64,000 bases of DNA from Dyella sp. SG609 (GTDB lineage Bacteria; Pseudomonadota; Gammaproteobacteria; Xanthomonadales; Rhodanobacteraceae): contig NZ_JAAZQJ010000007.1 of the NCBI RefSeq assembly GCF_012275375.1, positions 124,001-188,000 on the forward strand. The letters run 5' to 3'. The notes below the pieces were generated by a model, which was not told the DNA's origin, ran no database searches, and saw only the letters and a list, made by a program, of their open reading frames with translations. This document shows, piece after piece, positions 1 through 14,830 of the stretch. The translations under genes and the position numbers were made by a program. How positions within the stretch are numbered: position 1 is the stretch's first letter; each line of letters begins with the position of its first letter.

Positions 1-1361
1 GCCTGCTCGTGGCGGTGCCGGCGCTTGCCGCCGACACCGTCACCTCGCTCGGCGAACTGTTTTCCATCGCCCACGACAGCGAGCCCGGCTATCGCGCCGC
101 CAAGGCCAGCCTCGACGCTTCGCAGGCGCGCACGCGCCAGGCCTTCGGCGCGATGCTGCCGCAGATCTCCGCCACCGCCAGCAGCAATGGCAACCGCCGC
201 CGCTACGACACGCTGGACCGCGTCACCCACACCTTGCACGACCGCTATCACGGCGACACCGGCCAGCTCAGCCTGACCCAGCCGCTGTGGCGCCCCGCCA
301 ACACCGCCAGCCTGCACCAGGCCGAACAAGTGGAGCGGCAGAGCGAATACCAGCTCAAGGACACCGAGCAGCAGCTGTACCAGAAGCTGGCCTCCGCCTG
401 GTTCGACCTGATGGAAGCGCGCGACGCGGTGGAGTTCACCGCCGCGCAGCGCGACGCCTTGCGCGCGCAGTGGGATATCGCGCGCCGCGCCGTGGAACTG
501 GGCGCGCAAGGCGAACCGCAGGCCGAGGACGCGCACGCCAAGTACGAGGAAGCCGCGGCCGATGCGGAGTCGGCGCAGGCCGACCACGCCACCAAGCTGG
601 CCGCGCTCGAACAGTGGGTGGGTCCGGCGGAAGACCTGCAGCAGCCGTATCTGGACGACCAGCTCGAACTGCCCGACCTGATCGGCAACGACATCGACAG
701 CTGGCTGGGCCAGATCGACGCCAGCAGTCCCGCCCTGCGCGCCGCCGCGCGCGCGGTCGCCGCGGCGGAGGACGAAGTGAGCAAGCAGCGCGCCGGCCAC
801 CAGCCGACCCTGGACATGGTGGCCAGCTACGGCAACACCGACCAGAACGTCGGCAACTTTCCCGGCCAGGCCGGCTATCGCATCCGCACCTTTACCGTCG
901 GCCTGCAGCTCAACGTGCCGATCTATTCCGGCGGCACGCAGTCGGCCAAGGTCGCCGAAGCGCTGGCCCTGCGCGACAAGGCGCGCGACGACCTGGAAGC
1001 CGCGCGGCGGCAGGCCGTCCTCAACGTGAAAACTTCCTTTCTCGCCTGGCGCGCGGGCCTGGCCAAGGCGCGTGCCGCGCGCATCGCCATCGCCTCGGCG
1101 CAACGCGCGCTGGCGGTGGCCGAGCGCGGCACCGACCGCGGCCTGAAGACCGAAGCCGACACCCTCGCCGCGAAACAGCAGATCGCCGCTTCCCAGCGCG
1201 ACATGCGCAAGGGCCGCTACCAGCAGCTCACTGCATACATCAAGCTGCGGGCGACCCTGGGCGACCTGAGCATCGCCGATATCGACGAGCTGGATCAGTG
1301 CTTCGTGCCCGCGCGCATGAACGCTACCGCCTCGCTCAAGCCGGAGCGCGCGCCGCGATGA
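1..1361 (+). CDS. TolC-family outer-membrane efflux protein (5' partial)
   Basis: This is the outer-membrane channel component of a tripartite export system. Two long, Ala/Gln/Glu-rich alpha-helical repeats separated by short beta segments (such as the PIYSGG stretch near residue 300) are typical of the OEP family. The frame is open to the left edge, and the first visible residues (LLVAVPALAADT) look like the end of a signal peptide with an AxA cleavage site, so the true start lies upstream of the window and only a few residues are missing. The visible 450 residues are a normal TolC-family length. The stop overlaps the start of the next gene by ATGA, so it is translationally coupled to the GAF/HlyD adaptor. 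That makes it the likely exit duct of the 1-7334 export cluster. Confidence 0.85.
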   Translation, partial: LLVAVPALAADTVTSLGELFSIAHDSEPGYRAAKASLDASQARTRQAFGAMLPQISATASSNGNRRRYDTLDRVTHTLHDRYHGDTGQLSLTQPLWRPANTASLHQAEQVERQSEYQLKDTEQQLYQKLASAWFDLMEARDAVEFTAAQRDALRAQWDIARRAVELGAQGEPQAEDAHAKYEEAAADAESAQADHATKLAALEQWVGPAEDLQQPYLDDQLELPDLIGNDIDSWLGQIDASSPALRAAARAVAAAEDEVSKQRAGHQPTLDMVASYGNTDQNVGNFPGQAGYRIRTFTVGLQLNVPIYSGGTQSAKVAEALALRDKARDDLEAARRQAVLNVKTSFLAWRAGLAKARAARIAIASAQRALAVAERGTDRGLKTEADTLAAKQQIAASQRDMRKGRYQQLTAYIKLRATLGDLSIADIDELDQCFVPARMNATASLKPERAPR

Positions 1362-3205
1362 ACGCCCTGCCCGCCACACCCGATCCTTCCGCGCCCACGC
1401 CCTTGCCGCTGGACGGCTGGACGCGCTTCATCACCGCGCGCACCTCGGCCGAATTCTGCGACGCGTGGCTGGCGGTGCTGCGCGACAAGTTCGCGGTGAT
1501 CGCGCAGGCGGCGATCCTGGTCGAATCCGCGGACGGACAGAACTTCGTGCCGATCGCGGTGTTTCCGCAGGCCAACAGCGATATGGCGCGCATGGGCGAA
1601 GCGGTGCAGCGCACGCTGGCCGAGCGCCGCGTGGTGGTGCAGCCCTGCGCCGAACCTGCGGGCTTGTGGCATGTAGCGGCGCCGCTGTCGGTGCACGACC
1701 GCGTGGCCGGCGCGGTGGTGCTGGAGCTGAATGCGCACGACGAAAGCCTGCCGCTGCTGCTGCGCGAGCTGCATTGGGGCAGCGCCTGGCTCAGCAATCT
1801 GTTCGCGCGGCGCGAGCACGATGCCGCGCTCGCTTCGAGCGTGCGCTCGCTGGGCGTGCTCGAAGCCATAGCGATTGCGCTGCGCCACGAACGCTTCCAG
1901 CAGGCGCTGTTCGACCTCAGCAACGAATTGCGCCGGCGTTTCGGCGGCACGCGCGTGGCGATCGGCCTGATGCGCCATGGCGAAGCCAGGCTCACGGCGC
2001 TGTCGGAAGCGGCCACGTTCGAGAAATCCTCGCCGCTGGTGCACGCCTATGCCGCCGCGATGAACGAGTGCTGCGACCTGGCCCAGCCGGTGGAAGCGGC
2101 GGCGCCCGAACACGAGGCGCCGGACAGCTTCCGCGCGCATACCGCCCTGCTGCAGCGCACCGGCGCCGGCCGCCTGCTCTCGCTGCCGATCGCGCAGCAG
2201 GCCCGCTGCGTGGCGGTGGTGACGATCGAGCGCGAAGCGCCGACGCCGTTCGGCGACGACGAGCGCAAATGGATGGACACCTTCGGCGCGCTGCTGGCGC
2301 CGGTGATCGCCCAGCGCGTGGATGCGGAGCGCGGCTCGTGGCAGCGCCTGCGCGACGAAGGCCGCCGTTTCCTGGCCGCCTTGCTCGGCCCGCGCTATCT
2401 GCTGTGGAAGGCCGGCGCGCTGGCCGCGGCGCTGCTGCTGGCCGTGCTGGTGTTCCTGCCGGTGCCGTACCGCGTCTCCGCCAAGACCGTCACCGAAGGC
2501 GAGATCCAGCGCGTCGCCGCCGCGCCATTCGAAGGTTTTCTTGCCGCCAGCTTCGTGCGTGCCGGCGACACCGTCGCCAAGGGCCAGCCGCTGGCCCAGC
2601 TCGACGACCACGATCTGCGCGTGGAACGCAGCAAGTGGGCCAGCGAGCGCGATCAGTACGACAACAAGCTGCGCGAGGCGATGGCCGGGCACGACCTCAC
2701 CGCCATGCAGGTGGTCGGCGCGCAGTTGCGCGAGGCGCAGGCGCAGCTGGACCTGCTGGACGACAAGCTGTCGCGGGTAAAGGTGCTGGCGCCGTACGAC
2801 GGCGTGGTGGTCACCGGCGACCTGAGCCAGCAGATCGGCACGCCGCTGGAAGCCGGCAAGAAGCTGTTCGAGATCGCGCCGCTGCACAGCTACCGCATCA
2901 TTCTTCAAGTGGACGAGCGCGATATCGCCCAGGTGCGCGAAGGCCAGGACGGCCAGCTGGTGATCACCGGCCTGGCCGGCGCGCCGATGCCGTTCACCGT
3001 CGCCAAGATCATGCCGGTGGCCACCGCGCAGGACGGCCGCAACTTCTACCGCGTCGAGGCGCGCCTGAAGCAGGATTCGCCGCTGCTGCTGCCGGGCATG
3101 GAAGGCGTCGGCAAGATCGGTGCGGGCCGGCGCAAGCTGGGCTGGGTGCTGCTGCATGGCCTGTTCGACTGGCTGCGGCTGAATCTGTGGAGCTGGGGCC
3201 TGTAG
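1358..3205 (+). CDS. GAF-domain HlyD-type membrane fusion protein
   Basis: This 615-residue protein is a periplasmic adaptor expected to join an inner-membrane machine to the TolC-like channel. Residues about 25-150 and 175-320 look like two cytoplasmic GAF-type folds. One transmembrane helix follows at about 351-369, then a barrel-sandwich (lipoyl-like) half, a short coiled coil (about 420-465), the second lipoyl half (LAPYDGVVV) and beta-barrel segments. Ordinary HlyD/AcrA adaptors are 350-480 residues and lack the long N-terminal sensory part. The ATG was chosen because it overlaps the upstream stop (ATGA); the frame is open much further upstream but that part reads as shadow coding. The next gene starts 3 bases after the stop. 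The adaptor call is firm; a ligand for the GAF domains cannot be inferred. Confidence 0.85.
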   Translation: MNALPATPDPSAPTPLPLDGWTRFITARTSAEFCDAWLAVLRDKFAVIAQAAILVESADGQNFVPIAVFPQANSDMARMGEAVQRTLAERRVVVQPCAEPAGLWHVAAPLSVHDRVAGAVVLELNAHDESLPLLLRELHWGSAWLSNLFARREHDAALASSVRSLGVLEAIAIALRHERFQQALFDLSNELRRRFGGTRVAIGLMRHGEARLTALSEAATFEKSSPLVHAYAAAMNECCDLAQPVEAAAPEHEAPDSFRAHTALLQRTGAGRLLSLPIAQQARCVAVVTIEREAPTPFGDDERKWMDTFGALLAPVIAQRVDAERGSWQRLRDEGRRFLAALLGPRYLLWKAGALAAALLLAVLVFLPVPYRVSAKTVTEGEIQRVAAAPFEGFLAASFVRAGDTVAKGQPLAQLDDHDLRVERSKWASERDQYDNKLREAMAGHDLTAMQVVGAQLREAQAQLDLLDDKLSRVKVLAPYDGVVVTGDLSQQIGTPLEAGKKLFEIAPLHSYRIILQVDERDIAQVREGQDGQLVITGLAGAPMPFTVAKIMPVATAQDGRNFYRVEARLKQDSPLLLPGMEGVGKIGAGRRKLGWVLLHGLFDWLRLNLWSWGL

Positions 3206-3208
3206 CCC

Positions 3209-5353
3209 ATGGCGCGCAGTCCGTTCAGTCCGTCCTGGCATAGCGTGGCGCAGCTGCGGCCGCGGCTGATGCCGTATGCCACGGTGCAGCGCGTGGTGTT
3301 CCGCGGCAAGCCTTGGTACGTGGTGCAGGACCAGACCGGCGGGCGCGTCTATCGCCTGTCCACCGCGGCGTATGCATTCATCGCGGGCATGGATGGGCGC
3401 CAGACCGTGCAGGCCTTGTGGGAGCGCGCCAACACCTCCGAATCGCGCGATGCATGCACGCAGCCGGAAGTGGTCGACCTGCTGGTGCAGTTGCATGGCG
3501 CGGATCTGCTGCAGACCGACGTGGCGCCGGATTCCGCCGAAGCACTGGACCGCCACAAGCGCAAGCGCACCGAGACCATCCGCCAGTGGCTGCTCAATCC
3601 GATGAGCGTGAAGCTGCCGCTGCTCAATCCCGACCGCTTCCTTACCCGCCTGTCGCCCTACCTCTCGTGGTGCTTCGGCCCGGTCGGCGCACTGCTGTGG
3701 CTGGCCGTGATGCTGCCGGCCACGGTGCTGGCGGCGCAGCATTGGGGCGAGCTGACGCATAACCTCTCCGACCGCGTGCTGTCGTCGAGCAACCTGCTGG
3801 TGATGCTGGCGGTGTATCCGGTGGTGAAGCTGCTGCACGAGCTGGGGCACGGCTTTGCGGTGAAACGCTGGGGCGGCGCGGTGCGCGAGCTGGGCGTGAT
3901 GTTCCTGATCTTCGCGCCGGTGCCGTACGTGGAGGCGTCGTCGTCCGCGGCGTTTCCGTCGAAGTACCGGCGCGCCTTAGTGGCCGCCGCAGGCATGCTG
4001 GTGGAGCTGCTTCTTGCCGCGCTGGCGCTCTACGTGTGGCTGGCGGCCGAACCCGGCGTGCTGCGCGCGGTGGCGTTCAACGTGATGGTGATCGGCGGCG
4101 TGTCCACCTTGCTGGTCAACGGCAACCCGCTGCTGCGCTACGACGGCTATTACATCCTGGCCGACCTGATCGAGATGCCCAACCTGGCCCAGCGCGGCAC
4201 CGCCTGGTGGACCTGGCTGCTGGACCGCCATGCCTTCGGCTCCACCGACGCGGTAAAGCCGGACGAGACGCCGGCCGAGCAGCGCTGGCTGTTCTTCTAT
4301 GCACCGCTGGCATGGTTCTACCGCACTACGGTGACGCTGTCGGTGATCTTCCTGGTGGCGGGCAAGTACTTCATCGTCGGCGCGCTGATGGCGTGCTGGA
4401 GCGCGTATGGCCTGCTGGTGGGGCCGATCCGCAAGGGGCTGAAGCATCTGCGCACCGCCGGTGCGCTGCATCGCGTGCGTGCCCGTGCCTATCGCCGCAC
4501 CGCCGTCGCGGTTGGCGTCCTGCTCGCCGTGCTGCTGTTCGTGCCGGTGCCGTTGCATACGCGCGCCGAAGGCGTGGTGTGGCTGCCGGACCGCTCCATG
4601 CTGCACGCGCAGGAGAACGGCTTCTTCCATGCCTGGATGGCGGCGCCGGAGCAGGCCGTGCGGCGCGACCAGTCCGTCTACCTGATGGACAACCCGCAGC
4701 TGCAGGCGGAGCTCGCGGTCGACCGGGCCAAGCTGGACGAAGCGCAGGCGCGCTACGACGCGGATGCCTTCATCGACCCGGTGAAAGCCCAGGTCAGCGG
4801 GCGCCAGTTGGCCGAAGCGCGCGAAGTGCTCGAACGGGCGGAACTGCGCGCCGCGCGCCTGATCGGCCATGCCGGCGGCGACGGCCGCCTGATCGCCGCC
4901 ACGCCGCAGGACATGCCGGGCCACTACTACAAGAAGGGCGAGCTGCTCGGCTACGTGCTGGCGCCGCGCGACCTGATGGTGCGGGTGGTGGTACAGCAGG
5001 ACGATATCGATCTGGTGCACCAGCGCCTGCACGGCGTGCGCTTGCGCCTGGCCGATTCGCTGGGCGAGGAACGCGCCTCCCGCGTGGTGCGCAGCTTCCC
5101 CGGCGCGGTGGACGAATTGCCCACCGCGGCGCTGGGGCTCAACGGCGGCGGCGCCATTCCCACCAACCCGAACGACAACAACGGCGTGAAGACGCTGCAG
5201 CGCGTGTTTATCGTCGACGTCGCCCTGCCCGCCGGCATCGCGCCGCCGTTCGGCGAGCGCGTGCACGTGCGTTTCGACCATGGCAGCGAATCGCTGGCGC
5301 GCCAGGGCCTGCGGCGCCTGCGGCAGGTGTTCCTGGGGCATTTCGGTGTCTGA
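3209..5353 (+). CDS. PqqD-like/M50 zinc metallopeptidase/HlyD-type fusion protein
   Basis: This 714-residue inner-membrane protein joins three modules. Residues about 25-105 resemble a PqqD-like peptide-binding domain. A polytopic site-2-protease-like core follows, with the zinc motif HELGH at 210-214 and the second-ligand region NPLLRYDGYY at 306-315. After about residue 435 come a further membrane helix and a HlyD-like periplasmic half with a helical hairpin at about 495-560 and lipoyl-like strands. The M50 motifs look complete, so proteolytic activity is possible, but this subfamily might act only as a membrane scaffold. It sits 3 bases after the GAF/HlyD adaptor and overlaps the SecA-like gene, so the locus encodes two adaptor halves in one operon. 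The substrate is unknown. Confidence 0.82.
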   Translation: MARSPFSPSWHSVAQLRPRLMPYATVQRVVFRGKPWYVVQDQTGGRVYRLSTAAYAFIAGMDGRQTVQALWERANTSESRDACTQPEVVDLLVQLHGADLLQTDVAPDSAEALDRHKRKRTETIRQWLLNPMSVKLPLLNPDRFLTRLSPYLSWCFGPVGALLWLAVMLPATVLAAQHWGELTHNLSDRVLSSSNLLVMLAVYPVVKLLHELGHGFAVKRWGGAVRELGVMFLIFAPVPYVEASSSAAFPSKYRRALVAAAGMLVELLLAALALYVWLAAEPGVLRAVAFNVMVIGGVSTLLVNGNPLLRYDGYYILADLIEMPNLAQRGTAWWTWLLDRHAFGSTDAVKPDETPAEQRWLFFYAPLAWFYRTTVTLSVIFLVAGKYFIVGALMACWSAYGLLVGPIRKGLKHLRTAGALHRVRARAYRRTAVAVGVLLAVLLFVPVPLHTRAEGVVWLPDRSMLHAQENGFFHAWMAAPEQAVRRDQSVYLMDNPQLQAELAVDRAKLDEAQARYDADAFIDPVKAQVSGRQLAEAREVLERAELRAARLIGHAGGDGRLIAATPQDMPGHYYKKGELLGYVLAPRDLMVRVVVQQDDIDLVHQRLHGVRLRLADSLGEERASRVVRSFPGAVDELPTAALGLNGGGAIPTNPNDNNGVKTLQRVFIVDVALPAGIAPPFGERVHVRFDHGSESLARQGLRRLRQVFLGHFGV

Positions 5354-7334
5354 CGTGCGCGCCCTGCTGGCGGATCGGGATCTGCGGCTGGGCGATGGGC
5401 CTTATCTGGAACGGCTGGATGCGAAGCGCTCGCGCTGGGAGGACCGGCTGCGGGCGATGCTCGACAGCCTGCCGAGGTTCGACCGGCGACGCGTGCGTGA
5501 TTTCTTGGCCGCCACGGCAGCGCGCGAGGAGGCCGCACGTGCGGCCAGCGACGAGCAGGTGCGCGAACGCCTGCGTGCCGCCGCCCACCGCATGCATCTG
5601 GAAGGCTTTACCGATGCGATCCTGCCGGAGGCATTCGCGCTGATCCGCGAAGCCTCGCGCCGCACCCTGGGAATGCGCCATCACGACGTGCAGCTGCTCG
5701 CCGGCCGCGCGCTGCTGCAAGGGCGGCTGGCGGAGATGTCCACCGGCGAAGGCAAGACCCTGGCCGCCACCCTCGCCGCCTGCGCCGCGGCCGCGACGGG
5801 CGCCGCGGTGCACGTGGTGACGGTGAACGACTATCTCGCCGAGCGCGATGCGGAACACAACCGCGCGCTGTTCGATTTCCTCGGCATGAGCGCCGGCGTG
5901 GTGCTGCAGGACATGGCGGTGGCGGACCGGCGCAAGGCCTATGCCTGCGACATCGCCTATGTATCGAACAAGGAGTTGACGTTCGACTATCTGAAGGACT
6001 GCATTGCGCTGGGGGAAATCTCGGCAACCCAGCAGCGCCTGCGCGAGCTGGCCGGCGGCGCGCGCGGGGAGCCGCCGATCCTGCGCGGCCTGCATTTCGC
6101 CATCATCGACGAGGCCGACAGCGTGCTGATCGACGAGGCCAGCACGCCGCTGATTATTTCCGAGACGCTGCCGGACGATCTCGATCCGGCCGTCTATACG
6201 CAGTCGGTGGAGCTGGCGCGGACGCTTCAGGCGGGTACGGATTACATCAAGGGCCCGCGCCGCGATATCTGGCTGACCGAAACCGGCCGGCAACGCGTGC
6301 GCGAACTGACGGCGTCGTTCGGCGGCCTGTGGCGCTCCCCGCTGTGGCGCGACGAGTTCGTGCAGAAGGCTTTGTCGGCCGTGCATTGCTTCACCCGCGA
6401 CCAGGACTACATCCTGGCCGAGGACAAGGTGCAGATCGTCGACGAATCCACCGGCCGCGTGATGCCGGACCGCACCTGGGAGCGCGGCCTGCACCAGATG
6501 ATCGAGTGCAAGGAAGGCTGCGAGATCACCGGCCAGCGGCGGACGCTGGCGCAGATCACCTATCAGCGGTTCTTCGGGCGCTATCTGCTGCTGAGCGGCA
6601 TGACCGGCACCGCGCAGGAAGTAGCGCTGGAGGTGAAGCAGACCTACGGCCTGCCGGTCACGCGGATTCCCACGCACAAGCCGAGCCGGCGCCGGCGGCT
6701 GGCGGACCGCATCTGCGCCGACAGCGCGCAGCGCTGGCGCGAGGTGGCGCGGCGGGCGATCGAGCTGGCCGCGAACGGGCGCGCCGTGCTGGTGGGCACG
6801 CGATCGGTCGAGGCCTCCGAGATACTCGGGCGCCTGTTCGAGCAAGAAGGCGTCGAGCACATCGTGCTCAACGCGCGGCAGGACAAGGGCGAGGCGGAGA
6901 TCGTCGGCGACGCCGGCCAGCCCGGCCGCATCACCGTCGCCACCAACATGGCCGGCCGCGGCACCGACATCAAGCTCACCAAGGAGGTCGAAGCCGGCGG
7001 CGGCCTGCACGTGATCCTCACCGAGTTCCACGAATCGGCACGGGTGGACCGGCAGCTGTTCGGGCGCAGTGCGCGCCAGGGCGATCCCGGCACGACCGAG
7101 GCGATCGTCAGCGTGGACGACGACCTGTTCAAGCGCTTCGCACCTGCTGCCGGGCGCCGCCTGATGGCGCTGCTGATCCGCGATATGCAGCACAGCGAGC
7201 GATGGTTCCGGCGCTGGGTCACCTATGTGCAGGACCGGGCCGAGCGGCATTACCGGAAGCAACGGGTGGAAACGACGCGGAGGGATGCGGAGTGGGTGCG
7301 CGCACTCGGGTTTGTCGGAAAGACCAGGAAATAG
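5346..7334 (+). CDS. SecA-like translocase ATPase (short paralogue)
   Basis: This is a 662-residue DEAD-type motor homologous to SecA. From the GTG start, Walker A MSTGEGKT is at 131-138, the DEAD box of Walker B at 255-258, GMTGTA at 418-423, the TNMAGRGTD motif at 533-541 and the arginine-finger region GRSARQGDPG at 573-582. The crosslinking domain lies between the two nucleotide-binding folds at about 271-410. Housekeeping SecA is about 900 residues. This protein stops about 60 residues after the second motor domain, so most of the helical scaffold/wing and the Cys-rich zinc tail are missing. The GTG at 5346 was chosen because it overlaps the M50 stop; GTG 5355 is an alternative. The context implies a dedicated export ATPase and not the general SecA. 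Confidence 0.88.
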   Translation: MSDVRALLADRDLRLGDGPYLERLDAKRSRWEDRLRAMLDSLPRFDRRRVRDFLAATAAREEAARAASDEQVRERLRAAAHRMHLEGFTDAILPEAFALIREASRRTLGMRHHDVQLLAGRALLQGRLAEMSTGEGKTLAATLAACAAAATGAAVHVVTVNDYLAERDAEHNRALFDFLGMSAGVVLQDMAVADRRKAYACDIAYVSNKELTFDYLKDCIALGEISATQQRLRELAGGARGEPPILRGLHFAIIDEADSVLIDEASTPLIISETLPDDLDPAVYTQSVELARTLQAGTDYIKGPRRDIWLTETGRQRVRELTASFGGLWRSPLWRDEFVQKALSAVHCFTRDQDYILAEDKVQIVDESTGRVMPDRTWERGLHQMIECKEGCEITGQRRTLAQITYQRFFGRYLLLSGMTGTAQEVALEVKQTYGLPVTRIPTHKPSRRRRLADRICADSAQRWREVARRAIELAANGRAVLVGTRSVEASEILGRLFEQEGVEHIVLNARQDKGEAEIVGDAGQPGRITVATNMAGRGTDIKLTKEVEAGGGLHVILTEFHESARVDRQLFGRSARQGDPGTTEAIVSVDDDLFKRFAPAAGRRLMALLIRDMQHSERWFRRWVTYVQDRAERHYRKQRVETTRRDAEWVRALGFVGKTRK

Positions 7335-7408: not shown

Positions 7409-8323
7409 TTACGCCCCGCCGAGCGCGGCCAGGCGCCGGCATTCTTCCGCCAACGTCACCAGGTATGGATCGCCCTCGCGCCTGCGCAGCATCAGCAAAG
7501 TGATGGTCTGCTGCGACGTATACGGCGGCACCAGCGGGATCAGCCGCACGCGTGCATTGAACGACTCCATCCGCCCCGGCAGCAGGCTGTAGCCGACGCC
7601 GCCGCTGATCAGGTTGGTCAGCGAGAAGATGTCGCCTACACGCATCGCCACCTGCGGCTGATAGCCCGCGCGCCGAAACGCCTGCTGGAAACTCGCCGCC
7701 GTGGCGAAGTCGTCTTCCAGGCAGACGAACTTCTCGTTGCGCACCTCGGCCAGGTCGAGCGAATTCCGCCGCGCGTAAGGCGAATCGGCAGGCACGGCGA
7801 AGAAGATGCTGTCCTCGAACAAAGGCACGGCCAGTAACTGGTCGTCGTTCACCGGCTCGCTGAGCGCGATCACGATGGCATCCAGCCGCCCTTCCCGCAG
7901 CTGCTCCAGCAACAATCGGTTGGAGCCGAGCGTCAGGTCGATGTCCAGGGCCGAGTTGCGCAGCTTCATGCGCACCAGCAAGGGCGGCATCGTGCGCGTG
8001 GTCAGCGAATACAGCGACCCCACCTTCAGGCGCGGCGCGGACAAGCCGGCGATCTCCCGCACCCGCCGCACGCCCTCCTCCGCCTCATGCAGGGCGCGCT
8101 GCGCATGTTCGGCCAGCGCATAGGCCGTCTGCAGCGGAATCAGCTTGCGCCCGTCGAGCTTGAACAGCGGACAGCCCACCGCCTGCTCCAGCGAATGCAA
8201 CGCGCGGTGCACGCTGACCACGCTGTAGGAAAGCCGCTCCGACACCTTGGGCATGTTGCCCAGCTGCATGAAGGCCAGGAACACCTCCAGCTTCTTCAGG
8301 GTGAAGCCATCGTCGATGGCCAT
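7409..8323 (-). CDS. mdcR: LysR-family regulator of malonate decarboxylase genes
   Basis: This 304-residue LysR-type transcriptional regulator has an N-terminal winged HTH (about 8-65, with the LSYSVVSVHRALHSLE helix region) and a periplasmic-binding-protein-like effector domain (about 95-300). It is divergent from mdcA across a 120-bp gap holding a perfect 21-bp palindrome, which is the usual layout for MdcR activators that respond to malonate. The ATG at 8323 has GGGAG 7 bases upstream. An upstream in-frame ATG at 8350 lies inside the palindrome and has no comparable ribosome site, so it was not used. The specific MdcR assignment rests on context and LysR family membership. Confidence 0.88.
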   Translation of the reverse strand: MAIDDGFTLKKLEVFLAFMQLGNMPKVSERLSYSVVSVHRALHSLEQAVGCPLFKLDGRKLIPLQTAYALAEHAQRALHEAEEGVRRVREIAGLSAPRLKVGSLYSLTTRTMPPLLVRMKLRNSALDIDLTLGSNRLLLEQLREGRLDAIVIALSEPVNDDQLLAVPLFEDSIFFAVPADSPYARRNSLDLAEVRNEKFVCLEDDFATAASFQQAFRRAGYQPQVAMRVGDIFSLTNLISGGVGYSLLPGRMESFNARVRLIPLVPPYTSQQTITLLMLRRREGDPYLVTLAEECRRLAALGGA

Positions 8324-8346
8324 GCCACGCTCCCAGCCACCGGCAA

Positions 8347-8367
8347 TCATTAGCTTGAAGCTAATGA
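8347..8367. promoter_or_regulatory. 21-bp perfect palindrome, putative MdcR operator
   Basis: The half-site TCATTAGCTT is repeated in inverted orientation around a single central G. The core fits the T-N11-A pattern of LysR-type sites. It lies 23 bp upstream of the mdcR start and 76 bp upstream of mdcA, so it can serve autoregulation and activation of the mdc operon. A weaker, related CTTAGCTTGATTGAAGC sequence follows at about 8375-8391 and could be the second, activation half of the site. Confidence 0.7.
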
Positions 8368-8443
8368 AATTACGCTTAGCTTGATTGAAGCGCAACCGGG
8401 CGCCGCCTAGAGTCGCCCTCGCCTTTTCCGCGAGAGCCACCCG

Positions 8444-10096
8444 ATGACGGCCCCCTCCGCAGCCACCGCGCGCTGGACCACCCGCCGCACCGAGAAGCAG
8501 CGCCGCCTCGCCGCCGTCAGCGGCCTGGCCCATGGCAACCAGCTGCCGGCCGCGCGGCTGACCGAAGCGCTGGAACGCCTGATCAGCCCGGGCGACCGCG
8601 TGGTGCTGGAAGGCAACAACCAGAAGCAGGCGGATTTTCTCTCCCGTGCATTGGCCCAGGCCGACCCGGCCAGGCTGCACGACCTGCACATGATCATTCC
8701 CAGCGTCAGCCGCGCCGAGCATCTGGACCTGTTCGAGCGCGGCATCGCGCGCAAGCTGGATTTCGCTTTCGCCGGCACGCAGAGCCTGCGCATCTCGCAA
8801 TGCCTGGAAGACGGGCTGCTGGAGATCGGCGCGATCCACACATATATCGAGCTGTACGCGCGGCTCTACGTCGATCTCTCGCCGAACGTGGTGCTGGTCG
8901 CCGCGTACAGCGCCGACCGCGAAGGCAATCTCTATACCGGCCCCAGCACCGAGGACACGCCCGCCCTGGTGGAAGCGGCCGCCTTCCGCGACGGCATCGT
9001 GATCGCCCAGGTCAACGAGATCGTCGACCAGCTGCCGCGCGTCGATATTCCCGGCTCCTGGGTGGATTTCGTGGTGCCGGCGGACAAGCCGTTCTTCATC
9101 GAGCCGCTGTTCACCCGCGACCCGCGCCTGATCACGCCGATCCAGATCCTGATGGCCATGATGGCGATCCGCGGCGTCTACGAACGCCACCAGGTGCAAT
9201 CGCTCAACCACGGCATCGGCTTCAATACCGCGGCGATCGAATTGATCCTGCCCACCTACGGCGAACGCCTGGGCCTGAAGGGCAAGATCTGCCGGCACTG
9301 GGCGCTCAATCCGCATCCCACCCTGATCCCGGCCATCGAGAGCGGCTGGGTCGACAGCGTGCATTGCTTCGGCGGCGAGCTGGGCATGGAGGCTTATGTG
9401 GCGGCGCGTCCGGATGTGTTCTTCACCGGACGCGACGGCTCGCTGCGCTCCAACCGCCTGCTGTCGCAATTGGCTGGGCAGTATGCGGTCGACCTGTTCA
9501 TCGGCTCCACCTTGCAGATGGATGGGCTGGGCAATTCGTCCACCGTCACGCGCGGCCGCCTCACCGGCTTCGGCGGGGCGCCGAACATGGGCCACGATCC
9601 GCACGGCCGCCGCCATGCCACACCGGCGTGGCTGGACCTGATCCAGGGCGACGATCCGCTGCAACGCGGCCGCAAGCTGGTGGTGCAAGTGGTGGAAACG
9701 TTCCAGGCCGGCGGCAAGCCCAGCGTGGTCGAATCGCTGGATGCGGTGGCGGTGGGGCGCGAGGCCGGCATGCCGCTGGCGCCGGTGATGATCTACGGCG
9801 ACGACGTCACCCACGTGCTGACCGAAGAAGGCATCGCCTACCTCTACAGGGCCGAGTCGGTGGAGCAGCGCAAGGCAATGATCGCCGCGGTGTCCGGCGT
9901 CACGCCGATCGGCCTGCAGCGCGACCCGAAGGCTTTGGCGCAATTCCGCCGCGACGGGCTGGTCGCGCTGCCCGAGGACCTGGGCATCCATCCCGGCGAA
10001 GCCGACCGCTCGCTGCTTGCCGCGAAGAACATGGCGGAACTGGTGGCCTGGTCCGACGGGCTGTATCAGCCGCCTGCGCGCTACCGGAGCTGGTAA
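8444..10096 (+). CDS. mdcA: Malonate decarboxylase alpha subunit (ACP transferase)
   Basis: MdcA (550 residues) is the acetyl-S-ACP:malonate ACP-transferase that swaps acetate for malonate on the acyl carrier protein and starts each catalytic cycle. The protein is full length for MdcA and has the CoA-transferase-like fold. It carries recognisable Mdc segments such as EGNNQKQADFLSRAL near residue 56 and FGGAPNMGHDPHGRRH near residue 380. It is the first gene of the operon, following mdcR and its operator. The mdcB start codon shares a base with its stop (TAATG). Identification is strong because all other mdc subunits follow in order. Confidence 0.95.
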   Translation: MTAPSAATARWTTRRTEKQRRLAAVSGLAHGNQLPAARLTEALERLISPGDRVVLEGNNQKQADFLSRALAQADPARLHDLHMIIPSVSRAEHLDLFERGIARKLDFAFAGTQSLRISQCLEDGLLEIGAIHTYIELYARLYVDLSPNVVLVAAYSADREGNLYTGPSTEDTPALVEAAAFRDGIVIAQVNEIVDQLPRVDIPGSWVDFVVPADKPFFIEPLFTRDPRLITPIQILMAMMAIRGVYERHQVQSLNHGIGFNTAAIELILPTYGERLGLKGKICRHWALNPHPTLIPAIESGWVDSVHCFGGELGMEAYVAARPDVFFTGRDGSLRSNRLLSQLAGQYAVDLFIGSTLQMDGLGNSSTVTRGRLTGFGGAPNMGHDPHGRRHATPAWLDLIQGDDPLQRGRKLVVQVVETFQAGGKPSVVESLDAVAVGREAGMPLAPVMIYGDDVTHVLTEEGIAYLYRAESVEQRKAMIAAVSGVTPIGLQRDPKALAQFRRDGLVALPEDLGIHPGEADRSLLAAKNMAELVAWSDGLYQPPARYRSW

Positions 10097-10956
10097 TGGA
10101 AACCGCCATCCGCTCATCGGCAGCCGTCACGGAGCAGGCGCAGTTCGCCGCCTGGCTGGCCGGCCAGGTCACCGGCGCGCTGCTGGACGAAGTGATGCTT
10201 GCGCCCAAGCCGGGGCTGGTCGATCCGCGCCATCGCGGCGCGCACAGCGACATGCACTGGCAATTGCTGAGCCGCTCCGCGCATGCATTGCGCCCAGGCT
10301 TTCAGGCGATGGCGCTGGCCGCGTATCGCCAACCCGCCGGCAGCGCACTGCGCGAGCGCATCGGCGCGCTGGGACGCGAAGCCGAGGCCGCGATGCTGGC
10401 CGCGACCGGCGGCATCAATACGCATCGCGGCGCGATCTGGGCGCTGGGCCTGCTGGCCGTGGCCGCGGCGCAAGCGCCGGACGAGCTGACACCGGCGGCC
10501 ATCGCCGCGCGCGCCGGTTCGCTCGCGCGCATGCCCGATCGCCATGCGCCGGAACACACCGGCCACCCGGGCGAACGCGCCTGCCGCCGCTACGGTGTCG
10601 GCGGCGCACGCGGCCAGGCGCAAGCCGGCTTCCCGCACGTGCTCGGACACGGCCTGCCGACCCTGCGCGGCGCGCGGGCGCAAGGCGCCACCGAACACGC
10701 GGCGCGGCTGGATGCCCTGCTCGCCATCATGGCCACGCTGGACGACACCTGCGTGTTGTCGCGCGGCGGGCCGGAAGCGCTGCAGGCGCTGCAGGCGGGC
10801 GCCCGCCGCGCGCTGGCGCATGGCTGCGCCACGCTGGCCGGCCGCCGCGAACTGCGCCGCCTGGACCGCGAACTGCTGAGCCGCCACGTCTCCCCCGGCG
10901 GCGCCGCCGACCTTCTTGCCGCCAGCCTGCTGCTGGACCGCATCTCCCGCGCTTAA
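10096..10956 (+). CDS. mdcB: Triphosphoribosyl-dephospho-CoA synthase
   Basis: MdcB (286 residues, CitG family) makes 2'-(5''-triphosphoribosyl)-3'-dephospho-CoA from ATP and dephospho-CoA, the precursor of the MdcC prosthetic group. Family marks are EVMLAPKPGLVDP near residue 32, ATGGINTHRGAIWALGLL near residue 98 and the DDTCVLSRGG block near residue 215. The start is the ATG that overlaps the mdcA stop, implying coupling. It supplies MdcG, which moves the group onto MdcC. Confidence 0.95.
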   Translation: METAIRSSAAVTEQAQFAAWLAGQVTGALLDEVMLAPKPGLVDPRHRGAHSDMHWQLLSRSAHALRPGFQAMALAAYRQPAGSALRERIGALGREAEAAMLAATGGINTHRGAIWALGLLAVAAAQAPDELTPAAIAARAGSLARMPDRHAPEHTGHPGERACRRYGVGGARGQAQAGFPHVLGHGLPTLRGARAQGATEHAARLDALLAIMATLDDTCVLSRGGPEALQALQAGARRALAHGCATLAGRRELRRLDRELLSRHVSPGGAADLLAASLLLDRISRA

Positions 10957-10967
10957 GAGGACTGCCG

Positions 10968-11270
10968 ATGCAAACCCTCGCCTTCACCTTCCCTGCCGCC
11001 GCACCGGCGCATGGCCGCGCGCTGGCCGGCGTGGTCGCCTCCGGCGACCTCGAAGTGCTGCTGGAACCGGCGGCCGACCGGCACATCAGCATCGAAGTCA
11101 CCACCTCGGTCGAAGGCATGGAGCGCACCTGGGCGGCGCTGTTCGCACGCCTGTTCGCCGAGCCGACGCGGCCGGCGGTGCGGCTGCAGATCAACGATTC
11201 CGGCGCCACGCCCGGCGTGGTGAGCCTGCGCATCGCGCAAGCCTTCGACGCACTGGCGCAGGAGCACTGA
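10968..11270 (+). CDS. mdcC: Malonate decarboxylase acyl carrier protein (delta)
   Basis: This 100-residue protein carries the acyl group through the decarboxylase cycle. The GVVASGDLEVLLEP segment places Ser25 at the position that holds the phosphoribosyl-dephospho-CoA arm in the characterised Klebsiella subunit (family knowledge). The ATG has AGAGGA 6 bases upstream. It is 11 bp downstream of mdcB and 3 bp upstream of mdcD. Confidence 0.94.
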   Translation: MQTLAFTFPAAAPAHGRALAGVVASGDLEVLLEPAADRHISIEVTTSVEGMERTWAALFARLFAEPTRPAVRLQINDSGATPGVVSLRIAQAFDALAQEH

Positions 11271-11273
11271 ACG

Positions 11274-12125
11274 ATGGACGCACAACGCCTGCTGGCCCGC
11301 CGCAGCTTCACCGAACTCCATGCCCGCGCACGCGCGCAGGCCTTGCTCGATCCCGGCAGCTTCCGCGAGCTGATCGATCCATTCGAACGGTTGGCGTCGC
11401 CATGGCTGCCGCGCCAAGGCATCGTCACCCAGGCCGACGATGGCCTGGTGGTGGCGCGCGGCCTCCTGGATGGCAACCCGGCCGTGGTGCTTGCCATCGA
11501 GGGCGCGTTCCAGGGCGGCAGCATGGGCGAAGTGTCCGCGGCGAAGATCGCCGGCAGCCTGGAACTGGCGGCCGAGGACAACCGCCAGGGCATCCCTACC
11601 CGCGCCGCGATCGTGTTCGAAACCGGCGGCGTGCGCCTGCAGGAAGCCAACCTCGGGCTGGCGGGCATCGCGGAAATCCAGGCCGCCATCGTCGATCTGC
11701 GCCGCTACCAGCCCGTGGCCGGCATCGTTGCCGGGCCGGTCGGCTGCTATGGCGGCATGTCGATCGCCGCCGGCTTGTGCAGCTATCTGCTGGTCACGCG
11801 CGAAGCGCGGCTCGGCCTCAACGGCCCGGCGGTGATCGAACAGGAGGCCGGCATCGCCGAGTTCGACTCGCGCGACCGCGCCACCATCTGGGGCCTGAGC
11901 GGCGGCGAGCAGCGCTATCGCAGCGGCCTGGCCGACCGCTACGTGGAAGACGATGCGGCGCAGATCCGCCAGGCCTTGCTGGTCTGCATGCGCGCGGGCC
12001 GGCCCGGGCGTTGCCGCAGCGAACGCCACGATGCGTTCCTGCCGCCGCTGTCGCAGGCCGACGGCGCCCGTCCGGCGGAGCCCGCCGAGGTCATCGCCGC
12101 GTTCGGCGAGGAGTTGCGCGCATGA
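11274..12125 (+). CDS. mdcD: Malonate decarboxylase beta subunit
   Basis: MdcD (283 residues) is the carboxyltransferase-fold beta subunit. With MdcE it decarboxylates malonyl-S-ACP to acetyl-S-ACP without biotin. It has crotonase-superfamily Gly-rich turns, including EGAFQGGSMGEVSAAKIAG near residue 78 and GPVGCYGGMSIAAGLCSYLL near residue 155. The ATG is preceded by AGGAG inside the end of mdcC, and its stop overlaps mdcE by ATGA, as expected for subunits made in equal amounts. Confidence 0.95.
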   Translation: MDAQRLLARRSFTELHARARAQALLDPGSFRELIDPFERLASPWLPRQGIVTQADDGLVVARGLLDGNPAVVLAIEGAFQGGSMGEVSAAKIAGSLELAAEDNRQGIPTRAAIVFETGGVRLQEANLGLAGIAEIQAAIVDLRRYQPVAGIVAGPVGCYGGMSIAAGLCSYLLVTREARLGLNGPAVIEQEAGIAEFDSRDRATIWGLSGGEQRYRSGLADRYVEDDAAQIRQALLVCMRAGRPGRCRSERHDAFLPPLSQADGARPAEPAEVIAAFGEELRA

Positions 12126-12931
12126 ATACCTCCAGCCAACGCGGCCTCGTGTGGTGGCAGGCACTGACGGGCGGCACCGAACCACTGGCCGGCTACGCGG
12201 CTTCGCTGCGCGTGGCCGATGCAAAGCTCGGCGATGACATGGCGCGCTACATCGCGGTGGTGCCCGATCCGCACAATCCGTTCCCGCGCGCCCGCCGCGG
12301 CGAAACCGGCCTGATCGAAGGCTGGTCGCTGGCGCGGGCGGTGCGCGACGCCATCGAAGCCGACCGCGACCGCGACCTGCGCCGGCCGATCGTCGCGGTG
12401 GTCGACACGCCCAGCCAGGCCTATGGACGCAACGAGGAAGCCTATGGCATCCACCAGGCGCTGGCCGCCGCCGCGGACGCCTATGCCACGGCACGGCTGG
12501 ATGGCCATCCGGTGATCACGCTGCTGGCCGGCAAGGCCATGTCCGGCGCCTTCCTCGCGCACGGCTATCAGGCCAACCGGCTGATTGCGTTCGACGACCC
12601 GCAGGTCATGGTGCACGCCATGGGCCGCGACGCGGCGGCGCGCATCACCCTGCGCAGCGTCGACGAACTCGACGCGCTCGCCGCGGATATCCCCCCGATG
12701 GCTTACGACATCCACAGCTATGCCTCGCTCGGCCTGCTGTGGAGGCTGCTCGCCGTCGACAACCCGGCGGCACCCGGCGCCGATGCCATCGCCAAGGTGG
12801 CGAACGTATTGCGCGAAGCGGTCGCCGATATTCGCGGCGACGCCTCCCGCGGCCTCGAAAGCCGCCTGCACGGCCCGCTGCGCAAGGCCTCGGCCGACGT
12901 GCGCGCACGCCTGCGCGCGCAATGGCGCTAG
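12122..12931 (+). CDS. mdcE: Malonate decarboxylase gamma subunit (codecarboxylase)
   Basis: MdcE (269 residues) is the second carboxyltransferase-fold subunit and partners MdcD in malonyl-ACP decarboxylation. The PIVAVVDTPSQAYGRNEEAYG block near residue 89 and LLAGKAMSGAFLAHGYQANR near residue 138 are typical of the family. The ATG overlaps the mdcD stop. A 46-bp gap separates it from the transporter genes, so the decarboxylase core (A-E) is one uninterrupted block. Confidence 0.94.
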   Translation: MNTSSQRGLVWWQALTGGTEPLAGYAASLRVADAKLGDDMARYIAVVPDPHNPFPRARRGETGLIEGWSLARAVRDAIEADRDRDLRRPIVAVVDTPSQAYGRNEEAYGIHQALAAAADAYATARLDGHPVITLLAGKAMSGAFLAHGYQANRLIAFDDPQVMVHAMGRDAAARITLRSVDELDALAADIPPMAYDIHSYASLGLLWRLLAVDNPAAPGADAIAKVANVLREAVADIRGDASRGLESRLHGPLRKASADVRARLRAQWR

Positions 12932-12977
12932 CGCATCGTCTTCCACTCATGGCGCGCCGCGGCGCGTGGAGGTGCTT

Positions 12978-13376
12978 GTGATCGTCTACGGAACCACCCT
13001 GCTCGCCCTGTGCTATCTGGCCGGCCTGCTGCTGGGCGAGGGGCTAGGCCGCCTGATCGGCGTGGGCACCAATGTCGGCGGCGTCGGCATCGCCATGCTG
13101 CTGCTGATCGCCGCGCGCATCTATCTGCACCGCCGCGGCGCGCTGCCCAGGGAAACCGAGGCCGGCGTCGGCTACTGGGGCGCGATGTACATCCCCGTGG
13201 TAGTGGCGATGGCCGCGCAGCAGGATGTGGTCGCCGCCTTGCGCGGCGGTCCCGTGGCCTTGATGGCCGCGCTGGGCGCGGTGCTGGTGTGCGGCGGCTG
13301 CATCGCCTTGCTCACCCGCACGGGCCGCGACGACACCTCGCTGCCCGAATCCACCACCGAACAAGCGCTGAGCTGA
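12978..13376 (+). CDS. madL: Malonate transporter subunit MadL
   Basis: This small inner-membrane protein (132 residues) has about four hydrophobic segments, and MadL is the smaller half of the two-component MadLM malonate/Na+ (or H+) symporter. The TNVGGVGIAMLLLIAARIYL segment near residue 31 and the GYWGAMYIPVVVAMAAQQDV segment near residue 68 are characteristic. The GTG at 12978 was chosen because GGAGG lies 5 bases upstream and no ATG is available. It is 10 bp upstream of madM. Confidence 0.92.
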   Translation: MIVYGTTLLALCYLAGLLLGEGLGRLIGVGTNVGGVGIAMLLLIAARIYLHRRGALPRETEAGVGYWGAMYIPVVVAMAAQQDVVAALRGGPVALMAALGAVLVCGGCIALLTRTGRDDTSLPESTTEQALS

Positions 13377-13386
13377 GGACGCACCC

Positions 13387-14151
13387 ATGCTCGAAATGCT
13401 GGACAAGATGCTCAACAAGAACGGGCTGGTCGCGGCATTCGCGATGGTAGGGCTGGTGATGTGGGCTTCCGTGCTGCTGTCGCGCAAGCTCACTTTCGGG
13501 CGCGTGCACGGCTCGGCCATCGCGATCCTGATCGGCCTGCTGCTGGCGTACTGGGGCGGCGTGCAGACCGGCGGCCAGCACGGCCTGGCGGACCTGACCC
13601 AGTTCGCCGGCATCGGGCTGATGGGCGGCGCCATGCTGCGCGACTTCGCCATCGTCGCCACCGCCTTCGAGGTGCAGGTGGACGAGGCGCGCAAGGCGGG
13701 CCTGATCGGCGCGATCTCGCTGCTGCTCGGCACCGTGCTGCCGTTCATCGTCGGTGCGTCCATCGCGCATGCGATGGGCTATCGCGACGCGGTGAGCATG
13801 ACCACGATCGGCGCCGGCGCGGTCACTTATATCGTGGGGCCGGTAACCGGTGCGGCGATCGGCGCCAGTTCCGACGTGATGGCGCTGAGCATCGCCACCG
13901 GGCTGGTCAAGGCGATCATCGTGATGGTCTTTACCCCCGTGGCGGCGCGTGCGCTGGGCTTGTCGACGCCGCGCTCGGCCATGATCTTCGGCGGCCTGGC
14001 GGGAACGGTAAGCGGCGTCAGCGCCGGCCTGGCGGCGACCGACCGGCGGCTGGTGCCGTATGGCGCGCTGATCGCCACGTTCCATACGGGCCTCGGTTGC
14101 CTGCTTGGACCGTCGGTGCTGTTCCTGGCGACCAAGGCCCTGGTGGGTTGA
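13387..14151 (+). CDS. madM: Malonate transporter subunit MadM
   Basis: MadM (254 residues) is the larger, polytopic subunit of the malonate symporter, with about seven to nine hydrophobic stretches. Gly-rich membrane motifs such as FAGIGLMGGAMLRDFAIVAT near residue 74 and GLAGTVSGVSAGLAATDRRL near residue 205 match the family. The ATG has GAGGA 8 bases upstream. It works with MadL to import the substrate used by MdcACDE. In several described loci the transporter genes sit at one end of the operon; here they are inside it. Confidence 0.93.
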   Translation: MLEMLDKMLNKNGLVAAFAMVGLVMWASVLLSRKLTFGRVHGSAIAILIGLLLAYWGGVQTGGQHGLADLTQFAGIGLMGGAMLRDFAIVATAFEVQVDEARKAGLIGAISLLLGTVLPFIVGASIAHAMGYRDAVSMTTIGAGAVTYIVGPVTGAAIGASSDVMALSIATGLVKAIIVMVFTPVAARALGLSTPRSAMIFGGLAGTVSGVSAGLAATDRRLVPYGALIATFHTGLGCLLGPSVLFLATKALVG

Positions 14152-14155
14152 GCGC

Positions 14156-14830
14156 GTGGCCGCCGTGCCGAATCCACCGGCGGTGATGGCGGAACGGGAA
14201 GCACCGCGTCCGCACGACCTGCTGTGGGCAAGCGACACGCTCGAGGTGCTGCGCTCGCCCTCGCCGCTTCCGGGCTGGGTCGATGCGGCCTGGTTTGCGG
14301 CCGCGCCGCTGGTGGTGCGCCGCGAACGTGCGCCAGCGGGCCTGGTGCCGGTGGGCCTGCGTGGCGAGCAGCGCCATCAACGGCATGCCGCTTATCTGCC
14401 GGCGAGCGCGATGACAAGGCGCACGCCGCCGGAAATCCTGGCGCGTACGCGCGCGTGGGAACCTTGGGGCGATGCCGCCGGCCATCGCTGCCGCCTTGCC
14501 CTGCGCGTGCTGGCACCGCTGCTCGACGAACTGCCCTGGGCCTGGGGCATCACCGGCGGAGCCGGCTTTGCGATCGCGAGCGGCCTGCCGGTGCTGCGCG
14601 AAAGCAGCGACCTGGATCTGCTGCTGCGCATCCCGCGGAAGCCGGATCCCGCAGCGCTGCAGAAGCTGTCGCATCATTTCGCTGCAATGCCGATGCGTGT
14701 GGATGCGCAGGTGGATACCGGCCACGGCGGTTTCGCGCTGGCCGAGTGGCTGCGCGGCGGCCCGGTGCTGCTGAAGACCGGTGATGGCCCGCGGCTGGTG
14801 GCCGATCCCTGGGGCGCGGCGGCGCCATGA
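14156..14830 (+). CDS. mdcG: Malonate decarboxylase holo-ACP synthase
   Basis: MdcG is the phosphoribosyl-dephospho-CoA transferase that loads the prosthetic group made by MdcB onto MdcC. It has the nucleotidyltransferase-like G-G-x-A and S-x-D-x-D pattern in WGITGGAGFAIASG and LRESSDLDLLLR. It is 224 residues from GTG 14156, which lies 4 bp after madM; ATG 14186 (214 residues) is an equally plausible start and neither has a strong ribosome site. Its stop overlaps the mdcH ATG. Confidence 0.9.
   Translation: MAAVPNPPAVMAEREAPRPHDLLWASDTLEVLRSPSPLPGWVDAAWFAAAPLVVRRERAPAGLVPVGLRGEQRHQRHAAYLPASAMTRRTPPEILARTRAWEPWGDAAGHRCRLALRVLAPLLDELPWAWGITGGAGFAIASGLPVLRESSDLDLLLRIPRKPDPAALQKLSHHFAAMPMRVDAQVDTGHGGFALAEWLRGGPVLLKTGDGPRLVADPWGAAAP

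Follow-up and report, generated by a model that had tools for sequence, protein, structure and literature searches.

Which protein does an export locus without an ATP-binding cassette (ABC) ATPase serve, and what could drive it? This question is raised by one end of a 64,000-nucleotide stretch of the Dyella sp. SG609 genome (5.13 Mb), hereafter the window, which covers positions 124001-188000 of contig NZ_JAAZQJ010000007.1 (C7; window base 1 is C7:124001). There, tolC and the genes for a GAF-HlyD adaptor, an M50-HlyD protein and a SecA-like ATPase form a single tight operon of four genes on the plus strand. In this study, we found that the locus is real, widespread and conserved, and that it is strongly associated, at the level of sub-types, with giant proteins carrying an N-terminal LEPR-XLL motif, which offers both a cargo and a signal. 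These results suggest that the four genes probably specify an export apparatus dedicated to giant LEPR-XLL proteins. The link to the cargo is a strong correlation, from which we infer that the giants are what is exported. The genes concerned are the following, where RRE stands for the recognition element of ribosomally synthesized and post-translationally modified peptides (RiPPs).

C7:83319-121730, plus strand: proposed cargo gene, LEPR-XLL giant, 12,803 residues, ATG start
C7:123961 (39 bases before the window) to window 1361, plus strand: TolC-type OEP, 466 residues, GTG start
Window 1358-3205, plus strand: GAF-HlyD adaptor, 615 residues, 4-base overlap with tolC
Window 3209-5353, plus strand: M50-HlyD protein with a PqqD/RRE-like part, an M50 (HExxH) membrane domain and an HlyD part, 714 residues, after a 3-base gap
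Window 5346-7334, plus strand: truncated SecA paralogue, 662 residues, GTG start, 8-base overlap with the M50-HlyD gene

The coordinates and the Pfam matches bear out the operon of four genes, with its overlaps and 3-base gap, that an earlier note on the window had described. The TolC protein has a hydrophobic N-terminal signal and matched Pfam OEP with 173 bits; its score against TIGR01844, 219.6 bits, was slightly below the cut-off of 225.15. The GAF-HlyD protein matched Pfam GAF (38.5 bits) and HlyD_3 (66.7 bits). A pattern scan of the vicinity of the operon (C7:60001-141000; the rest of the genome was not searched) detected no ABC ATPase, the part immediately upstream included. The giant gene ends 2.3 kb 5' of the window and lies in a 12,844-codon open frame. 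Its N-terminus (...RFEALEPRVLLSGDV...) matched the LEPR-XLL model NF012209 with 32.4 bits (cut-off 17). The body of the protein matched CARDB, PPC, He_PIG, Big_9 and cadherin-like families, and it contained 14 cysteines and a single matrixin-type zinc motif, HEYGHLLGFEH. The repeats-in-toxin (RTX) nonapeptide GGxGxDx(hydrophobic) occurred 0 times in the whole giant, and an RTX cargo was rejected on this count.

The co-occurrence of LEPR-XLL proteins and M50-HlyD was examined in a class sample and a phylum sample, which overlap (G000, G107, G224 and others). The M50-HlyD profile was built from 14 class genomes, 13 of them with LEPR. In the class sample, LEPR-XLL was found in 20 of 229 genomes and M50-HlyD of at least 200 bits in 17; LEPR was present in 15 of these 17 versus 5 of the 212 others (p=1.7e-17). 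LEPR without an M50-HlyD match was seen in G213, G120 and G076; the frame in G120 has 99 codons, and the G076 assembly consists of about 780 contigs. G213 also has a frame of 7373 codons (L121, contig C57) whose start is of the LEQRLLLS type. In the phylum sample, 50 of 299 genomes had LEPR-XLL. M50-HlyD was called strong type when the best match in a genome reached at least 600 bits and weaker type when its E-value lay between 1e-146 and 1e-60, the latter counted by hand. LEPR was found in 33 of 35 strong-type genomes, 15 of 49 weaker-type genomes and 2 of the remaining 215. Fisher's test of 33/35 against 17/264 gave p=5.6e-29, a value that ignores kinship between genomes. The two exceptions among the 215 were G429 and G496, the latter with a 64-codon frame; 44 of the 215 had slight M50-HlyD matches (E 1e-60 to 1e-10). 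No LEPR-XLL was found in 14 well-known control genomes. In three families (f188, f193 and f197), some genomes combined strong M50-HlyD with LEPR and others among those listed had neither, and for the genomes listed this contrast is a partial control for kinship.

LEPR giants were often encoded close to the machine. Among the matches listed for the phylum set, 36 of 77 LEPR matches shared a contig with an M50-HlyD match, and the other 41 were on contigs without one. With spans estimated from frame length, 32 of the 36 lay within 10 kb of M50-HlyD, in 25 of the 50 genomes; the remaining four lay at 10.6, 11.4, 36 and 610 kb. LEPR was also found in 41 of 49 named genomes, a set chosen for carrying the locus, with frames of up to 14,414 codons. 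The recurrent large gene with a leader that the earlier note had suspected is thus the LEPR giant, which recurs with the machine.

We compared the leaders of the giants at 51 loci with LEPR matches, mostly the best match of each genome. The motif could be read in 41 and cleanly placed in 35. Leaders from strong-type genomes followed [LMI]EPR-x-[LM]-h-[SA] in 27 of 28 cases, with LEPRVLLNSD as the exception. All six leaders from weaker-type genomes followed LEPR-x-[LM]-h-D-[AG]-A, and the remaining one, LEPRILLDGT, came from G120, which has no M50-HlyD. These results show that two LEPR sub-types segregate with two sub-families of M50-HlyD; the link was made per genome, and strong-type genomes may hold both types of machine. 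The most hydrophobic 15-residue window of the 35 leaders had a mean of at most 1.68 (median 1.11), compared to 2.57 for the TolC protein of the window locus. This gap between leaders and exported proteins is modest.

We also compared the tails of the giants. The pattern [IVLF]-x-W-[DGQNSTEAKR], designated as hxW, stood within 75 residues of the stop in 31 of 51 giant tails at strong-type loci, compared to 97 of 1058 windows from the interior of these 51 proteins (p 8e-20, a descriptive value) and 1 of 8 tails at weaker-type loci. The frames were picked as long and repeat-like, by length and composition, and may include a few proteins other than LEPR giants. A matrixin-type motif, HExxHxxGxx[HD], was present in 14 of the 51 strong-type frames, in 10 of these 79-142 residues from the end, and in 0 of the 8 weaker-type frames. 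A further tail, W-x-x-DF(V/L)-x-H-x-G/A...RNPNA-x-L, is common to giants of several genera (L093, L144, L148, L160, L169, L185 and L250).

The conservation of the gene set was assessed in 80 named loci, the best matches to the M50-HlyD profile among a larger number. Since the loci were selected on M50-HlyD, this sample is blind to how frequent the SecA-like gene is on its own. The GAF-HlyD gene adjoined M50-HlyD in all 74 loci with enough flank. The SecA-like gene adjoined it in 74 of 75, the exception being L153; two of the 74 (L197 and L206) were diverged, with 139 and 152 bits. These counts go beyond a chance arrangement. Forty loci spanned 20 kb or more; of these, 31 had a short HlyD protein and 28 had a giant repeat frame (at least 1500 codons) or an LEPR start. 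The constant core is GAF-HlyD, M50-HlyD and the SecA-like gene, and tolC is usually not nearby, which leaves three of the four genes as regular companions. ABC signatures were found at 5 of the 80 loci, in six open reading frames (ORFs) that lie 2.1-5.9 kb from the M50 gene. A looser pattern added one ORF each in L103, L113 and L168; it also flagged the SecA frame of L177, probably by chance. The nearest named relatives of the M50-HlyD gene of the window are in Dyella (82% identity), Frateuria (77%) and Luteibacter (75%).

The SecA-like protein matched Pfam SecA_DEAD (327.8 bits), SecA_PP_bind and P-loop_SecA, and its 662 residues had no Pfam match to the scaffold/wing family SecA_SW. Its best match spans residues 39-563 of the 783 of B. 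subtilis SecA. The matched region covers what we take to be both motor halves, nucleotide-binding domains (NBD) 1 and 2, with the preprotein-binding domain; by the same naming it leaves out the rest of the scaffold, the two-helix finger, the wing and the C-terminal linker. Together with the empty ABC scan, this agrees with the earlier description of a SecA paralogue without its C-terminal parts as the only visible motor. In alignments of 18 and 30 sequences, each with the window copy among them, the Walker A and DEAD residues were invariant or almost so, and a C-terminal tail, LxFxG, was conserved (LGFVG in the window copy). A decayed or mis-assembled SecA was therefore rejected, since the aligned sequences share a comparable tail and keep the ATPase motifs. 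The AlphaFold2 model had a mean predicted local distance difference test (pLDDT) of 84.9 and a predicted template modelling score (pTM) of 0.84. Its lowest E-value was to B. subtilis SecA (1tf5), and the top template modelling (TM) scores among the 50 matches listed were to SecY-bound SecA (6itc, 0.81; 5eul, 0.78). Elsewhere, the genome encodes another SecA (934-codon frame) and gave one SecY match; a second SecY was not found.

SecA-like genes were told from canonical SecA by a match reaching the end of the profile (A2), with an E-value limit of 1e-60 in the phylum set. Canonical copies matched to about position 510-563 of 670 and full-length SecA-like copies to 660-670. Of the 35 strong-type phylum genomes, 33 had the gene, the window genome included, a count that takes in G290 (cut by a contig end), G230 (weak, 213 bits) and G507 (in-frame stop). 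Of the 17 LEPR genomes that do not have the strong type, one (G387) carried it. In the class sample, M50-HlyD exceeded 300 bits in 16 genomes, and 12 of these had the SecA-like gene, G081 on a separate contig. The SecA-like gene thus belongs to the LLSAD sub-type and is not universal there. A diverged SecA_DEAD protein of 573 residues was also seen adjoining a weaker-type M50-HlyD gene (L117:6599-8320, G060); G060 has no LEPR match. Used as bait against 22 genomes, this protein found G060 itself and the SecA-like gene of G053 (144 bits); in the other 20, it gave only matches in canonical-SecA-looking frames or none.

A different layout was observed at L109:5515-11629 (G224), where OEP, short HlyD, HlyD and M50-HlyD, checked with Pfam, stand in a row; L110 (G119) and L116 (G162) are alike. 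In G224, the giant is of the LEPR-D[AG]A kind, and the SecA-like gene is absent. This layout is a possible sister export system without a SecA-like motor.

The M50-HlyD protein is, as judged from its residues, a predicted protease with the catalytic site of an M50 metalloprotease intact. Its Pfam M50 score was 27.4 bits, barely above the cut-off of 27.2; H210, E211 and H214 of HExxH and the downstream D312 were invariant in alignments of 14 and 47 sequences. A PqqD match at E of at most 1 was obtained in 9 of 14 strong-type relatives (best 7e-7), and these matches agree with the earlier description of two HlyD-type adaptors, one of them with a PqqD-like domain. The model of the protein (pLDDT 86.2, pTM 0.69) consists of a helical membrane bundle and a MexA-like adaptor. 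At its N-terminus (residues 25-97), three strands (25-50) are followed by three helices (52-97), an order that in the model fits the topology of the PqqD/RRE fold. A fold search with the whole protein returned adaptors in all 50 matches listed. The M50-HlyD proteins of three further genomes (G282:C30, G383:C30 and G256:C32; frames of 599-608 codons) matched only from profile position ~130 and seemingly do not have the PqqD-like domain. NCBIfam models of daptide/epipeptide maturation proteases matched the M50 part below their cut-offs (NF041824, 138 bits against a cut-off of 300). A plain peptide-maturation protease was judged less likely given the HlyD fusion and the adjoining giant gene.

Our best reading is that giants without an obvious Sec signal pass through an HlyD-TolC duct, driven by the SecA-like protein. 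The PqqD/RRE-like domain of M50-HlyD would read the non-hydrophobic N-terminal leader with LEPR-x-LL-SAD. The truncated SecA would then bind the unfolded chain and push it with ATP, and the two HlyD-type adaptors would bridge to the TolC channel. Candidates for the inner-membrane pore are SecYEG or the M50-HlyD assembly itself. The intramembrane M50 protease may clip the leader, and the C-terminal hxW tail may hold the product at the surface. In its fullest form, the proposal is a one-step pathway in which a SecA homologue replaces the ABC ATPase for proteins of about 15,000 residues and a RiPP-type reader fused to an intramembrane protease and adaptor recognises LEPR, with a sister pathway that lacks this SecA and uses the D[AG]A leader; this form is tentative, and we give it somewhat less than an even chance.

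Several observations weigh against these proposals. Only 9 of the 40 long loci (20 kb or more) encode an OEP, as do 18 of all 80. LEPR was not matched in strong-type G302 and G230, in class genomes G008 and G094, or in 8 of the 49 named locus-bearing genomes, one of which (L168) has the variant start YEPRLLLSG. The limits that define the two types, the 600 bits among them, were chosen after the scores had been viewed. The SecA-like gene was not found in G404 and G236 (phylum) or in G190, G206, G052 and G094 (class), where a much diverged form could escape; all of these except G094 have LEPR matches. Weaker-type M50-HlyD/LEPR systems are almost always without the gene. The gene is thus not strictly required, or is replaced, in some M50-HlyD/LEPR systems, and in those LLSAD systems from which it is absent, canonical SecA or a different motor may act. 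The idea of a dedicated SecA motor is supported by its place beside M50-HlyD in 74 of 75 loci and opposed by the systems without it. The reader faces similar objections: the PqqD match (PF05402) of the window copy, 14.0 bits, is below the cut-off of 23.4, and none of eight weaker-type M50-HlyD proteins had a match. LEPR can therefore accompany machines that have neither the proposed motor nor the proposed reader. Since weaker-type systems have LEPR without a PqqD match, either a diverged reader or another part may see the common LEPR core. Hydrophobicity is a crude proxy for a signal, and two small exported-type neighbours of the operon score 1.71 and 1.85. The hxW pattern was defined after part of the tails had been viewed, and 20 of the 51 tails do not have it. 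The text of PMC10868602 describes a Vibrio LEPR-XLL giant with C-terminal RTX, and LEPR may therefore not be exclusive to ABC-free export.

The systems without the SecA-like gene would be explained if M50-HlyD were the essential part, for leader reading, cleavage or maturation, with a chaperone or regulator role for the SecA-like protein in place of that of translocation motor. The sub-cut-off resemblance of the M50 part to daptide/epipeptide proteases points the same way. We consider this unlikely, however, as the SecA-like gene nearly always adjoins in the LLSAD sub-type and keeps Walker A and DEAD. A motor role could also take a two-step form, in which a SecA2-like accessory ATPase feeds LEPR giants to ordinary SecYEG and the HlyD and TolC proteins take over from the periplasm. 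The single SecY match, the resemblance of the model to SecY-engaged SecA (6itc, 5eul) and the presence of the preprotein-binding and both motor domains are consistent with such a route. It is nevertheless rather unlikely in our judgement: the two-helix finger of the scaffold, the part that pushes the chain into SecY, falls outside the matched region, the leaders have no strongly hydrophobic stretch, and M50-HlyD unites a membrane domain and an adaptor in one chain.

The giants might instead leave through an ABC-driven type I system of the usual kind, with its genes elsewhere, and the locus would then be a mere neighbour that has another job. In favour of this, type I systems typically carry giants rich in repeats and include TolC and HlyD among their parts, and the RTX-bearing Vibrio protein (PMC10868602) would fit. 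This explanation is highly improbable: the giant of the window genome has no RTX, no ABC signature was found beside the operon (ABC exporters were not searched genome-wide), and the co-occurrence of LEPR with M50-HlyD and the segregation of sub-types extend across many families. A dedicated export machine for the LEPR giants is thus the reading that we prefer. The pairing gives both the locus and the LEPR-XLL giants a partner and opens both to direct tests. Should the SecA homologue prove to be the motor, an ATPase of the SecA family would be at work in an export line of the TolC type that does without an ordinary Sec signal peptide.

Two further genes, with coordinates as follows, lie between the giant gene and tolC.

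C7:121793-122380: small protein 1, 195 residues, exported-type N-terminus
C7:122398-123045: small protein 2, 215 residues, exported-type N-terminus

The two small proteins look alike and are possible partners of the giant. Just 5' of tolC, on the minus strand at C7 ~122900-123700, a lipoprotein-like frame of 105 residues runs antisense to the operon. No further HlyD/biotin_lipoyl (short HlyD) gene was found in C7:121000-141000. Directly 3' of the operon, at window 7409-14200, lie a regulator and further genes that have no evident tie to the export locus and that we take to resemble a malonate decarboxylase cluster.

The earlier note's view that the system is undescribed was rejected. Kamneva, Poudel and Ward reported a secondary SecA_DEAD, type I-related locus in 2015 (PMC4452313). 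As described in the main text of that paper, the locus comprises SecA_DEAD without (most of) SecA_SW, GAF-HlyD, M50-HlyD and sometimes OEP, without an ABC transporter; SecA was proposed as a co-opted ATPase and M50 as the pore, so that the idea of SecA in place of ABC is also theirs. In Methylobacterium extorquens AM1, that paper places the locus at META1p2402-2399. An additional HlyD/biotin_lipoyl protein belongs to the M. extorquens operon and is not stated there as required. The work is computational and is thus not an experimental description, and it grades the locus as one whose 'broader biological role' is 'completely unknown'; it is cited by PMC5313232. The words 'giant', 'LEPR' and 'adhesin' have 0 occurrences in its main text, figures and supplements aside. 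No description of the export of LEPR giants, or of a link between LEPR and the machine, was found in open-licence PMC papers, a body with no preprints and few subscription journals. The gene set has thus been known in outline since 2015, and the association with LEPR cargo appears new within the literature searched.

The window locus resembles that of 2015, as its main text describes it, in a SecA without scaffold and wing, adjoining GAF-HlyD and M50-HlyD genes and no ABC gene nearby. It differs in having no short extra HlyD protein, and the present study adds the LEPR giants, the leader sub-types, the PqqD/RRE-like domain, the hxW tail and the SecA-less relatives. NF012209 (LEPR-XLL, LEPR-8K) likewise concerns a motif at the N-terminus of very large proteins; it gives the motif a name and no more, whereas here the motif is linked to a partner machine and divided into two types. 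Type I secretion consists of HlyB, HlyD and TolC and exports LapA and RTX giants, although RTX is not present in every type I cargo. The window shares with it the TolC channel, HlyD-type adaptors and a giant repeat protein, but differs in the N-terminal LEPR motif and in the absence of RTX and of an ABC ATPase beside the operon. Like SecA2 of Gram-positives and mycobacteria, which is a second SecA-family ATPase and is represented among the structural matches (6sxh, 4uaq), the window SecA is a paralogue; unlike SecA2, it lacks the region past the second motor half save a short tail and is paired with HlyD and TolC. The accessory Sec system (SecA2-SecY2) differs in that the window genome has one SecY match only. 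Canonical SecA shares NBD1, the preprotein domain, NBD2, Walker A and DEAD with the window protein, which is without the two-helix-finger scaffold, wing and C-terminal linker. Daptide/epipeptide proteases (PqqD/RRE with M50) also combine a fold like that of a leader reader with an M50 protease, whereas the M50 part of the window is fused to HlyD and adjoins the gene for a giant protein.

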